From positions 62,001 through 126,000 of the forward strand of contig NZ_JALJQZ010000010.1 in NCBI RefSeq assembly GCF_022968395.1: a stretch of 64,000 bases of DNA, written 5' to 3'. The notes beneath the pieces were generated by a model that saw only the letters and a list, made by a program, of their open reading frames with translations, did not search any database and had not been told where the DNA came from. Within the stretch, counting starts at the first letter, position 1; each line of letters opens with the position of its first letter. Shown piece after piece: positions 18,389 to 63,237 of this stretch. The DNA is from Affinirhizobium lemnae. GTDB taxonomy: Bacteria; Pseudomonadota; Alphaproteobacteria; Rhizobiales; Rhizobiaceae. The position numbers and the translations under genes are program-made.

Positions 18389-19942
18389 ATGGCTTTATCT
18401 ACCAGCCTGTTGCTGCGCCAAGCTCAAACTCTGGTCATGACACCGCAACTGATGCAGTCCATCCAGCTGCTTCAGATGACACACCTCGAACTCAACCATT
18501 TCATTGCGCAGGAAGTCGAAAAGAACCCTCTGCTCGAATTCTCTCCATCTGATGGAGAAGCAAGCAATGACAGTTTCGAGAGTTTCGAGGCACCAGAGAC
18601 GAATGCCAACGAAGATAGCGGACACTCAGCCTCCGGCGATGGGGATGCGGACTGGTTCGATTCCGGTTCGAACGATCATGGACAGCTCAACGAGCGCCTA
18701 GACGCGAATTTCGAGAATGTTTTTCCTGATGATGTAGCCGAGCGTCGGCCGGATGCACCTGAACTGATGGGTCAATGGAAGTCCATGCCCGGCGGTGAGG
18801 CTGGCGAGGGATATGATCTGGAGGATTTTGTTGCGAGCACTGTTTCCCTGCGAGACTATCTCTCCCAGCAAATCCCCTTTCTGCTGCATCAGGAAAGAGA
18901 CCGGCTCATCGCGCAGCACCTGACAGACCTTCTCGATGAGAATGGCTATCTGCAGGGCGATACGTCAGAGGTCGCGGAACGCCTTGGTACGACGCCAGCG
19001 CAGGTCGATGCCATTCTGAAGTCCTTGCAATCCCTCGATCCACCGGGAGTTTATGCACGCTCGCTCACCGAATGTCTCTCCATCCAGCTGACCCAGAAGG
19101 ATCGCCTGGATCCGGCCATGCAGGCACTTCTGGGAAATCTCGAACTTTTGGCCAAGCGCGATTTCGCGTCGCTGCGGCGCATCTGCGGGGTGGATGACGA
19201 GGATCTCATCGACATGCTGGCAGAGATCCGCGCGCTCAACCCGCGTCCGGGCAGCAGCTTCGAAAATGGCGGCTACGAGGCTATCCTCCCTGACGTGGTG
19301 GTGCGTGCCGGGACTGACGGAAGCTGGCTTGTCGAGCTGAACCCAGACACCTTGCCGAGGGTGCTCGTCAACCAGACCTATTTTCAGTCGATTTCCAAGA
19401 AGGCGTCCAGACCGGGCGAAGACGCGAATTTCCTCTCTGAGTGCCTGCAAAATGCAAACTGGTTGACACGTAGCCTGGACCAGCGCGCCAAGACGATCAT
19501 GAAAGTGGCCTCCGAAATCGTCCGTCAGCAGGACGCATTCTTGCTCCACGGGGTCGATCATCTTCGTCCGCTGAACCTGAAGACCGTGGCCGAAGCCATC
19601 AAAATGCACGAGTCAACGGTCAGCCGGGTCACATCGAATAAGTACATGCTGACCCCGCGCGGGCTTTTCGAGCTCAAATATTTTTTCACAGTTTCCATCA
19701 ACTCAGCTGAAGGTGGAGACAATCACTCCGCGGAAGCCGTGCGTCATCGCATTCGCCAGATGATCGCGCAGGAGGCTCCCGAAGCGGTCCTCTCCGATGA
19801 CGATATCGTCGCCATCCTGAAGAAATCAGGGGTCGAGCTGGCACGAAGAACCGTTGCCAAATATCGGGAATCCATGAACATTCCGAGCTCCGTCCAACGA
19901 CGGCGCGAGAAGCGGACTCTTGCCAGGATTGCCGCCTGTTGA
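18389..19942 (+). CDS. rpoN: RNA polymerase sigma-54 factor
   Basis: RpoN directs RNA polymerase to -24/-12 promoters that need AAA+ activators such as NtrC, NifA and DctD. The 517 residues have region I (LLLRQAQTLVMTPQLMQSIQ, Gln/Leu-rich, activator-responsive), an acidic region II (about residues 50-130), the core-binding region, and the C-terminal RpoN box ARRTVAKYRE. The start read as MALSTSLLLRQ is the conserved rhizobial N-terminus; 14 upstream in-frame codons are disregarded. The order lptB-rpoN-hpf-ptsN is the classic proteobacterial arrangement. Confidence 0.96.
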   Translation: MALSTSLLLRQAQTLVMTPQLMQSIQLLQMTHLELNHFIAQEVEKNPLLEFSPSDGEASNDSFESFEAPETNANEDSGHSASGDGDADWFDSGSNDHGQLNERLDANFENVFPDDVAERRPDAPELMGQWKSMPGGEAGEGYDLEDFVASTVSLRDYLSQQIPFLLHQERDRLIAQHLTDLLDENGYLQGDTSEVAERLGTTPAQVDAILKSLQSLDPPGVYARSLTECLSIQLTQKDRLDPAMQALLGNLELLAKRDFASLRRICGVDDEDLIDMLAEIRALNPRPGSSFENGGYEAILPDVVVRAGTDGSWLVELNPDTLPRVLVNQTYFQSISKKASRPGEDANFLSECLQNANWLTRSLDQRAKTIMKVASEIVRQQDAFLLHGVDHLRPLNLKTVAEAIKMHESTVSRVTSNKYMLTPRGLFELKYFFTVSINSAEGGDNHSAEAVRHRIRQMIAQEAPEAVLSDDDIVAILKKSGVELARRTVAKYRESMNIPSSVQRRREKRTLARIAAC

Positions 19943-20240
19943 GCTTAAGACTAAAGCTGACTCAGATGATCAGGAACCGGCGAATCACTTTTTGGCTGCC
20001 GAATCACGCCAAAGATAAACCTAGGCTTTAAAATATTATGCGCATATACCACCGTTGACTTTCCCGAAATCGACCGTTAGAAGCGCGCCGCACAATGAGA
20101 AAGGACGGCGGAAGCCGCATTTAACGGTCGGTCAGGCCTATCGTTATCAAATCGGCGAAGTATCAGCAGAGACGCTTGGATGAGGGAGCCGCTTGGCGTA
20201 GACTGCCACGTGCAAGTCACGACAAGAAGGAAGGAATTCC
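19943..20240. other. Intergenic region between rpoN and hpf
   Basis: 298 bp without a credible gene. It holds two GAATC (GANTC-type) sites at 19982-19986 and 20001-20005 and a loose promoter-like TTGACT at about 20054, 17 bp ahead of TAGAAG. hpf therefore probably has its own promoter here. I see no stable terminator after rpoN. Confidence 0.4.
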
Positions 20241-47513: not shown

Positions 47514-47780
47514 ATGGCCAATACCACTTCGGCGAAGAAGGCGACCCGCAAGATCGCACGCCGCACAGACATCAACAAGGCGCGCCGTTCGCGTGTTCGT
47601 ACTTTCATCCGCAAGGTTGAAGAAGCCATTGCTTCGGGCGATGCAGCAGCAGCAGCAGAAGCTCTGCGTGCAGCACAGCCGGAAATCCAGCGTGCCGCCA
47701 CGAAGGGCGTCGTTCACCGCAACACGGCCTCCCGCAAGGTGTCGCGTCTGGCGGCGCGCGTGAAGGCAATTTCCGCCTAA
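47514..47780 (+). CDS. rpsT: 30S ribosomal protein S20
   Basis: S20 binds 16S rRNA early in 30S assembly. The 88 residues are lysine/arginine/alanine-rich: [59 protein letters not shown]. The start is chosen by family and by GAGAGGCAG upstream; nine codons before it are open but not conserved. Followed by an intrinsic terminator, then the dnaA upstream region. Confidence 0.96.
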
Positions 47781-47804
47781 TTACCGTCACAAACGGTTGT
47801 TTTT

Positions 47805-47831: not shown

Positions 47832-48610
47832 CGTGATTCTGACCTATAAGAACTTGGACCTAGGGCCAGAAAAGAGTTCCATGACATCGCAGTGACATAA
47901 ATAATCTTTTATTTACAATAGTTTATCGGAGGATCCTGTCAGGTCTATCGCGATCGGCCAGGGAAACTCGAGAGTCAGTGAGTCAAGCATTTTTTTATTT
48001 TTTTGCCCTTTTTCGCCATGTGTCTCTATGCCATTTTCGAATCCCATTGATTCGTTTGAGATTCTGGCTCAAAGCCCGCTGTCCGAGTCAAATTAGGTGC
48101 TCTGAGTCAACGCACCTGGCTTAATTTTATGTAAAATTCGTCGTTGATTCCCCCCCCTGATCCTGCCTTAATGCATTTCAACAAGCGGCACGGGGAACCC
48201 TCCAGAAAATCGACGCAGAGAACTCGGCGCAGCCGAGAACTTCAGGTTTTCGCCTCTTGTCCGGGCTGTGACTGCAGCGCGGTTCTTCAAAAAGCTTGAG
48301 CGTGTTCAGCGGTGCCTCTCCGGCTCCGGGGTTTCTCGTTCGTGCCGAATGGTTGGGCGTCGCCTTCGGATTGAAGTGTAGGCCTTATTTCATCGACGAG
48401 GGTGAAATCGGGTTTCTTGGGGCGCACGAGGCGAACCAGCAGCCGGGTAGCCGGCGTCGTGCGACGGGTCGCGCGGCACATGCAACCAAGGCGGATGTTT
48501 CCGGTTCTGACGAGGAGGACCGGGTGCGGAGGCCGAACAAGAATTTGTCCTGGCGGGTGGGTATGGCACCCTTCGGCGGGAAACTCATAAGAAGGCGGCA
48601 AGGAATGCAT
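47832..48610 (+). promoter_or_regulatory. dnaA upstream region with a cluster of eight GANTC sites
   Basis: About 780 bp without a supported gene, AT-rich from 47880 to 48160. Eight GANTC sites lie at 47972, 47980, 48039, 48049, 48060, 48085, 48104 and 48146 (first bases). GANTC is the CcrM methylation target in alphaproteobacteria, and dnaA is methylation-regulated in Caulobacter. A perfect 16-bp palindrome AATTTTATGTAAAATT is at 48123-48138, and TTATTTACA at 47909-47917 is a near-consensus DnaA box. A weak promoter candidate is TTGCCC (48003) 18 bp ahead of TATGCC (48027). Confidence 0.65.
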
Positions 48611-59666: not shown

Positions 59667-60059
59667 AGCCGGTCCTGCAGACGGTGTACGCGCGCCGTTG
59701 AAGAAAGATGAAAATTCCATCCAAATTGGGTAGCAAGATTATAGAAATTTAACTTTCATGACAAAGCGCCATATTTTTTGTCCAAATGTGGCGAGCGATT
59801 CTGCTTTTTGATAAAATTTTTTCTTCACGATTTCACGCGAATCACGCGTTCGAATCTCAACAGAACAATTTTCCAGAATCCTACTGGAATCACTTAATTT
59901 TTCCTGCCTAAACAGTCAATTTCATTAGCCGGCTTTAAATCACGATTGTTACATGTTTTAACATTGCGTGATCACAAGGCCCACGTTTTCGCCTTTTTTG
60001 GCCATGCCTAGACCACCTCGCACGCATCTCACCACTTGGATCAACGGGGATAATCGGAT
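59667..60059. promoter_or_regulatory. AT-rich intergenic region with five GANTC sites
   Basis: 393 bp without a gene. GANTC sites start at 59797, 59839, 59852, 59876 and 59887, five within 95 bp. TGTTA and TAACA (59947-59951 and 59959-59963) form a short inverted repeat. It presumably holds the promoter of the RlpA-like gene; the GANTC density suggests methylation-dependent, cell-cycle-linked control. Confidence 0.55.
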
Positions 60060-60422
60060 TTGAAACTTCCAAAACGCTCAGCTTTCGCAGCAGTCGCTCT
60101 CGCATCGTTTTCGATGATTGGCTCTCAAACGGCGCAAGCCGCTCCAGGTTGTGGTCACGCTTCCTGGTATGCACTGGGTTCCAAGACAGCCTCCGGCGAA
60201 CGTATGAACGCCTCCAAGCTCACCGCGGCGCATCGCTCGCTGAGTTTCGGAACGAAGGTCAAAGTTACCAACAAGCGCAATGGCAAGACCGTCGTGGTTC
60301 GCATCAATGACCGCGGTCCTTTCATTCGCGGCCGCGTCATTGATCTCTCGAAGGCAGCAGCAGCCGACATCGGAATGGTTTCGACAGGCACCGCCCAGGT
60401 CTGTTACGAGGTCATCGGCTGA
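60060..60422 (+). CDS. RlpA-like double-psi beta-barrel protein, secreted
   Basis: A 120-residue exported protein: signal peptide [20 protein letters not shown], then a double-psi beta-barrel ([60 protein letters not shown]). This is the RlpA catalytic fold, a septal lytic transglycosylase for denuded glycans. It lacks the lipobox Cys and the C-terminal SPOR domain of full RlpA, so it would be a soluble periplasmic DPBB protein. Translation starts at TTG. Confidence 0.85.
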
Positions 60423-61965: not shown

Positions 61966-63237
61966 ATGCTCCGCCGAACTCTCTCGACTATCAGTTCTGC
62001 TCTAGCCGCTTCGGTGGCTTTTGTCGCGCTGCCTGCACTGGCTGCAGAGCCCACCGAGGTTCTGAAACACTATGCGGCCGTCGGTCATGCGAAATTCGAA
62101 GACGCCCTGAGTACAGCCAAGGCATTGGACAAGGCCGTAGACGCCCTCATCGCAAAGCCATCAGAGGAAACGCTGAAGGCTGCGCGTCAGGCATGGCTTG
62201 TGGCGCGTACACCCTATTTGCAGACTGAGGTCTACCGCTTCGGCAATCCCATTGTTGATGACTGGGAAGGCAAGGTGAATGCATGGCCTCTCGATGAAGG
62301 TCTTATCGACTATGTCGATGCCGCCTACGGCACCGAAAGCGATGCCAATGCCTTCTACACAGCCAATGTCATTGCCAATCCCAAGCTCAAGATCAACGGC
62401 GAGGACATCAATGCCTCGAAGATCACGCCGGAACTGATCCGCAGCCTGCATACGGCTGGCGAAGTGGAGGCCAATGTTTCGACCGGCTATCACGCGATCG
62501 AATTCCTGTTGTGGGGGCAGGACCTGAACGGCACCGGACCGGGAGCAGGCAATCGTCCCTTTACCGATTACGACAAGGCCAATTGCACGCATGGCAATTG
62601 CGATCGTCGTGGCGACTATCTGAAGTCGGCGACCACGCTGCTGGTTCAGGATCTTCAAGAAATGGTAGAGGCCTGGGCTCCCACCGGCGAAGCCACGAAG
62701 GCTGTTCTGGCCGATCCGAAGGCGGGCCTTTCCGCAATCCTCACAGGCATGGGCTCACTGTCCTACGGCGAACTGGCCGGAGAGCGCATGAAGCTTGGCC
62801 TTCTGCTGCATGATCCAGAAGAGGAGCAGGATTGCTTTTCCGACAACACGCACAATTCGCACCTGAACGACGCCATTGGCATCGCGTCCGCCTATCGCGG
62901 AACCTACACGCGCACTGACGGAACCAAACTGGCAGGGCCTTCCCTATCCGATCTCCTCAAGGCCAAGGATGCCGTTCTCGACACGGAACTGAACGTCAAG
63001 CTCGACAAGACGCTTGCCGACATGCAGATCATGGCGGAGCGCGCTCAGAAGATCGAAGCCTATGACCAGATGATCGCCGAGGGCAACAAGGAGGGTAACG
63101 CAGTTGTGCAGGCCCCGATCGATGACCTTATTGCCCAGACGAAATCAATCGAGCGCGTGATCGCGGCGCTCGATCTTGGCCAGGTGAAGCTCCAGGGTTC
63201 GGCGAGCCTCGATAATCCGAACGCCGTGTTCAAATGA
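61966..63237 (+). CDS. Imelysin-family periplasmic protein (IrpA-like)
   Basis: A 423-residue exported protein with signal peptide LSTISSALAASVAFVALPAL. It has the imelysin signature GxHxxE as GYHAIEFLLWGQDLNGTG and the second conserved part QTEVYRFGNPIVDDWEGKVN, and the C-terminal repeat half. Relatives (iron-regulated IrpA, ICMP, EfeO domain) take part in periplasmic iron handling. GGAGGGG precedes the ATG. Followed by a DUF1111 gene, the usual partner. Confidence 0.9.
   Translation: MLRRTLSTISSALAASVAFVALPALAAEPTEVLKHYAAVGHAKFEDALSTAKALDKAVDALIAKPSEETLKAARQAWLVARTPYLQTEVYRFGNPIVDDWEGKVNAWPLDEGLIDYVDAAYGTESDANAFYTANVIANPKLKINGEDINASKITPELIRSLHTAGEVEANVSTGYHAIEFLLWGQDLNGTGPGAGNRPFTDYDKANCTHGNCDRRGDYLKSATTLLVQDLQEMVEAWAPTGEATKAVLADPKAGLSAILTGMGSLSYGELAGERMKLGLLLHDPEEEQDCFSDNTHNSHLNDAIGIASAYRGTYTRTDGTKLAGPSLSDLLKAKDAVLDTELNVKLDKTLADMQIMAERAQKIEAYDQMIAEGNKEGNAVVQAPIDDLIAQTKSIERVIAALDLGQVKLQGSASLDNPNAVFK

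Follow-up and report, generated by a model that had tools for sequence, protein, structure and literature searches.

The sequence analysed is a window of 64,000 nt from Affinirhizobium lemnae (Rhizobiaceae), corresponding to positions 62,001–126,000 of the forward strand of contig NZ_JALJQZ010000010.1 (assembly GCF_022968395.1), and all coordinates are those of the window. The region of interest is the gap between rpsT and dnaA, whose elements are itemized in Table 1. Eight GANTC sequences are located within 179 bp of this gap (47972–48150), all at the positions given in the original prediction. The cluster lies ~465–640 bp 5′ of the chosen dnaA start (48611), and is not directly at the start codon.

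Table 1. Features of the rpsT–dnaA region. Fractions are the number of sequences carrying the site among the 81 Rhizobiaceae sequences compared.
Feature	Position	Strand	Remarks
rpsT (30S ribosomal protein S20)	47514–47783	+	Reading frame, named from the protein reading; the gap starts 3′ of it
Putative promoter P1, GTGACA-16-TACAAT	47892–47919	+	Consensus scan 10/12; partly conserved; putative function
GANTC, window only	47972–47976		1/81
GANTC s1 (GAGTCAAG)	47980–47984		79/81
GANTC s2 (GAATC)	48039–48043		66/81; CAA-N5-TTG in 14 others; L071 has neither
GANTC s3 (TTGATTC)	48049–48053		81/81
GANTC s4 (GATTCT)	48060–48064		80/81
GANTC, small groups only	48085–48089		9/81
GANTC s5 (GAGTCAA)	48104–48108		81/81
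CtrA-like TTAA-N7-TAAA, one mismatch, within AATTTT..AAAATT dyad	48121–48135	+	Predicted
Invariant promoter-like block, probable promoter P2	48144–48172	+	Predicted start near 48180
GANTC overlapping the predicted −35	48146–48150		2/81 (window and L037)
dnaA	48611–50185	+	Reading frame; DnaA relatives; start codon by ribosome-site spacing

In the 179 bp of the cluster 0.58 GANTC are expected from independent bases. Dinucleotide shuffles of the stretch contain 0.92 ± 0.89 with a maximum of 6, and eight or more were found in none of 20,000. Each of seven other palindromes with identical make-up is present 0–2 times. GANTC is avoided overall in the window, since 101 are observed against 341 from shuffles; such avoidance is reported for alphaproteobacteria, as is a generally higher frequency of intergenic than of coding GANTC (PMC3973325, PMC8725594).

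The background in the same genome was taken from 60 further stretches plus the window (1,080,112 bases, ~22% of 4.85 Mb), which contain 1741 GANTC or 1.61 per kb. Thirteen clusters have at least four GANTC per 179 bp, comprising the dnaA cluster with eight, three with five and nine with four, so within the 1.08 Mb sampled no other 179-bp stretch is as dense as the dnaA cluster, the runner-up having five. The idea that such density is out of the ordinary is therefore borne out in the 22% of the genome sampled, where no unrelated intergenic region is similarly dense. One cluster of five adjoins gcrA; the remaining clusters are found some between and some within predicted reading frames. Elsewhere in the window there are five GANTC in 95 bp at 59797–59891, in an intergenic region before a putative RlpA-like frame at 60060, and five in 138 bp at 19868–20005, at the end of a putative rpoN-like gene and before a putative hpf-like gene.

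The region was compared in 81 sequences, comprising the window and the best 80 named Rhizobiaceae dnaA loci, with DnaA 77–88% identical over the best segment. rpsT is upstream of dnaA in all 81, with a gap of 760–1046 bp. Dense GANTC upstream of dnaA extends across Rhizobiaceae in all 80 of these loci, the best count per 179 bp in the gap being 4 in 6, 5 in 23, 6 in 50 and 7 in 1, while the window has 8. In 81 of 81 sequences this count exceeds the best elsewhere in the same sequence. Five of the sites (s1–s5) are conserved, most commonly at −68, −10, 0, +11 and +54 relative to 48049 (18 patterns altogether), and the 10- and 11-bp spacings, about one helical turn, are present in most of the sequences. 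The wording of s1, s3, s4 and s5 is nearly exceptionless, including the base N. In the 43 rows of <85% identity the mean entropy is 0.16 bits for the GA..TC columns and 0.03 for the N columns, against 1.23 for 159 other columns. A further aligned GANTC, at 47835 nearer to rpsT, is present in 53 of the 81.

The conserved blocks are short words separated by variable DNA. A coding or structured-RNA region was rejected, as the blocks resemble neither and an Rfam scan of the window gave no match at gathering level. Taken over the whole gap of the 81 sequences GANTC is 1.8 times as frequent as in shuffles; GTNAC, however, reaches 2.4 times, so that a whole-gap surplus over shuffles is an unspecific test, and whole-gap counts are moreover inflated because the conserved words share descent. 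The argument rests instead on site-by-site conservation, which supports the view that selection maintains the five GANTC as an array upstream of dnaA across Rhizobiaceae. Lineage-specific extra GANTC were set aside as evidence for selection, there being too few independent gains. The cluster had been proposed as a single strengthened switch of eight sites; five of these belong to the conserved array, but those at 47972, 48085 and 48146 do not. Chance is excluded for the five, and may hold for the other three.

The block TTGAT-N10-GATCCTG-N2-T-W-AAT, downstream of s5, is constant in all its named columns in 81 of 81 sequences. The rhizobial sigma-70 form is CTTGAC-N17-CTATAT, to which the block is an imperfect fit, and a consensus promoter scan did not list it; the scan did list P1, on the 5′ side of the array. 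P2 is preferred to P1 as the probable dnaA promoter because its block is invariant. Transcription would then start near 48180, with the conserved sites 74–198 bp upstream and a leader of ~430 nt. A long putative dnaA leader is described in Sinorhizobium meliloti, with probes at −372 to −319 (PMC4414408). If transcription started mainly from P1, the leader would contain the array; alternatively, the array may be flanked by two dnaA promoters. In 58 of the 81 sequences the CtrA-like element precedes GATCCTGC by no more than 50 bp. Minus-strand promoters formed from CTTGACTC or TTGACTC at s1 and s5 were rejected, as by eye there is no −10 element at the right distance.

The reach of the array was examined in 80 further family genomes out of 120 returned, mainly distant and few with DnaA at least 75% identical, and in 29 additional loci found by searching the whole order (L091–L119; L092 and L216 represent one genome). 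The triad GANTC-N5-GANTC-N6-GANTC is present in 65 of the 81 sequences, occurs once in the 4.85-Mb A. lemnae genome, and is found in 6 of the 80 further genomes (L180, L181, L182, L184, L191 and L226). Among the order-wide loci only L091, of the same family, has it. The core block, searched by pattern, is in 80 of the 81 sequences, 5 of the 80 genomes and none of the order-level loci. For 74 family genomes lacking the triad, the ratio of GANTC in the gap to shuffles is 1.42, and for 27 order-level loci it is 1.05. Other gaps contain 0–7 GANTC per 179 bp in different layouts. In L218 (G158) the sites are denser than in the window and differently arranged, the dnaA gap containing 10 GANTC within 179 bp and 13 within 600 bp.

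Two loci illustrate retention and loss. In L226, from a 1.5-Mb genome, the gap is 28% G+C, yet s2–s5 and the core block are kept. In L185 (G103) none of the five array sites is left, while the core block can still be recognised, GTCAAG is retained at two of the five places, and both CcrM and the cluster at gcrA (L282) are kept; this relative is a natural comparison strain. CcrM is present in all 14 genomes tested, none of which thus offers a natural loss of the methylase for comparison, and it is kept without the array in G103, G180, G085, G185 and G168. This distribution places the array in a single large group and shows that it can disappear.

The A. lemnae genome encodes CcrM (L085:1156–2283, minus strand), with N6_N4_Mtase and RAMA domains; the frame matches PDB 6pbd, ‘Modification methylase CcrMI’, with E = 2.3e-163. 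GcrA is also encoded. Two marks of a methylation-responsive promoter, GANTC in the regulatory region and CcrM in the genome, are both found. In S. meliloti the average GANTC methylation frequency is reported as 0.99, and the 2025 methylome has dnaA among the top intergenic hits for GANTC methylation (PMC11711589). Taking hemE as the marker of the origin, dnaA is ~0.20–0.70 Mb away in nine of ten relatives (one value assuming a circular contig), the tenth being G137. An origin-like region adjoins hemE in A. lemnae (L153:16374–16900), with two copies of TTATCCACA and one of TTGTCCACA. Three GANTC lie together within 30 bp at the margin of this region, and GANTC is therefore not at its densest at the origin.

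A second cluster is found upstream of gcrA. In 30 loci (that of A. lemnae and the best-scoring 29 from a search of 40 other genomes) the 400 bp upstream have 3–6 GANTC per 179 bp, against 0–3 in the 900 bp that follow the start, and three alignment columns contain GANTC in 24, 29 and 27 of the 30. The cluster (L138:11690–11939 in A. lemnae, L261–L289 in relatives) has its common positions near −186, −176, −167, −154 and −40. It is more widespread in the family than the dnaA array. Agrobacterium tumefaciens gcrA is reported to have six GANTC in 250 bp and to be repressed by methylation, rising 2.8-fold on CcrM depletion; methylation lowers the activity of this promoter even in Escherichia coli (PMC11514494).

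The array bears on how dnaA expression is coupled to replication in alphaproteobacteria, and may let dnaA sense the recent copying of its own stretch of chromosome. We consider it on balance probable that in the Rhizobium–Agrobacterium–Sinorhizobium group the cluster serves the dnaA promoter as a conserved cis-element, at which hemi-methylation after fork passage alters transcription. The array, its conservation and the CcrM and GcrA genes are observed here, while the position of the promoter, a response to methylation, its direction and a reader are inferred. Five GANTC at nearly fixed spacing would be methylated by CcrM upstream of a sigma-70-type start. On passage of the fork through dnaA the array would become hemi-methylated, a state lasting until the late-cycle action of CcrM. 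This could alter its binding by NtrX, GcrA, an unnamed protein or the polymerase itself, and thereby the transcription of dnaA during the remainder of S phase. The direction we lean to is less transcription in the hemi-methylated state.

This explanation is favoured because the five sites are present in 66–81 of 81 sequences at nearly fixed spacing, with N largely fixed in diverged DNA. The single triad in the genome, the top rank of the array within its locus in every sequence, the retention in L226 and the presence of CcrM count for it, as do the near-complete methylation in S. meliloti, the gcrA precedent and the distance from hemE to dnaA. The original reading as a methylation switch is partly supported, by a selected array in a Rhizobiaceae genome with CcrM and GcrA. 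Counting against a promoter element responding to hemi-methylation are the relatives that carry CcrM without the array, an invariance of N and of the TCAA/TTGA flanks that exceeds what methylation needs, and the whole-gap frequency of GTNAC. In A. tumefaciens depletion or overexpression of CcrM is reported without significant change in ori1 timing, and in the text of that paper dnaA is absent from the genes named as affected, none of six mentions of DnaA reporting a change in dnaA (PMC11514494); in Caulobacter without CcrM the level of DnaA is described as unchanged (PMC3667746).

A special case of the favoured explanation is that GcrA is the reader, the methylated sites recruiting GcrA with sigma-70 polymerase. 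Its gene is present, GANTC is bound more strongly by S. meliloti GcrA when methylated (PMC3667746), and the extended GcrA motif YGAKTCK occurs at least once in 71 of the 81 arrays (at s4 in 64), the one copy in the window being at 48049. However, this motif is not enriched among the array sites of the 81 sequences relative to background, with 83 of 431 (19%) against 466 of 1733 (27%). Moreover, known GcrA sites are at or near the core promoter, while the array sites are 74–198 bp upstream of the predicted start. The suggestion that GcrA reads the cluster is therefore unsupported, and we regard it as a rather unlikely option among others.

Alternatively the invariant blocks might be ordinary sites for regulators such as NtrX or CtrA that happen to contain GANTC, with methylation a bystander. 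The fixed N and flanks would be expected from this, and TT precedes or AA follows GANTC at 281 of the 538 sites in the gaps, compared with 154 of the 1741 in the background. The S. meliloti dnaA site shown by gel shift to bind NtrX is CAAAACCCTTG (PMC9223101), which in Sinorhizobium loci is at s2–s3, sharing TTG with TTGATTC, and CAA-N5-TTG is at this place in 14 of the 81 sequences. The predicted CtrA-like element and the words retained in L185 after loss of its five sites also fit. Against this, 66 of 81 sequences have GAATC replacing the NtrX half-site, and five independent sites that are all GANTC, in a genome that avoids GANTC, are hard to explain without methylation. This leaves the bystander role possible but doubtful. 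No CAA-N2-5-TTG of the NtrX type is present in the window array, while three are found elsewhere in the window gap. DnaA boxes within one mismatch are absent from the window gap; at least one is present in 59 of the 81 gaps, and an exact box in 5.

Methylation might also act directly on the polymerase or on DNA shape, without a dedicated reader. This is possible because methylation lowers gcrA promoter activity in E. coli (PMC11514494), and a GANTC overlaps the predicted −35 in the window and L037; but with a site inside the core promoter in only these 2 of 81 sequences, and the five conserved sites upstream of it, we think it improbable. Chance, or a general intergenic surplus of GANTC such as the literature describes and the low ratios outside the core group might suggest, is very improbable for the array in view of the shuffles, the genome background and the site-by-site conservation.

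The richness in GANTC at dnaA has been glimpsed before, since the S. meliloti methylome named dnaA (PMC11711589). Titles and the openings of abstracts of the papers listed, with subscription papers mostly outside this coverage, contained no description of the array. Two comparative studies are described as looking only 200 or 400 bp 5′ of start codons (PMC11514494, PMC2877005), a range that falls short of the array, which in most of these genomes is ~450–750 bp away. In a third study the 125 bp upstream of transcripts were considered (PMC8725594), which would take in only the near end of the array if the predicted start is right. With a fixed array, an array-less relative (G103) and the overlap with the NtrX site, the question is therefore testable in the laboratory.

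Among known systems, the Caulobacter dnaA promoter is similar in gene and methylase. The state of its GANTC alters dnaA transcription, an effect described as small but significant (cited in PMC3973325). The S. meliloti NtrX site is at the same place in the orthologous dnaA region, but its box is absent from the window array, and GANTC does not appear in the text of the paper describing it (PMC9223101). The A. tumefaciens gcrA promoter is from the same family and has dense GANTC 5′ of a cell-cycle regulator. Unlike dnaA, its methylation response has been measured (PMC11514494). As in the dnaA array the gcrA sites are conserved and about one helical turn apart, but they are within 190 bp of the start codon and their flanking bases differ. 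The E. coli dnaA promoter has several GATC sites, subject to Dam and SeqA, that are hemi-methylated after fork passage. A. lemnae resembles it in having several methylation sites at dnaA, with the helical-turn spacing (10 and 11 bp) of a SeqA-type arrangement, and differs from it in motif and methylase. More speculatively, and with little probability, the dnaA and gcrA arrays might form a paired replication clock, in which one shared factor would bind both arrays when hemi-methylated and fork passage would reset the two regulators in opposite directions; if so, it would be a separately evolved counterpart of the control of dnaA by SeqA.
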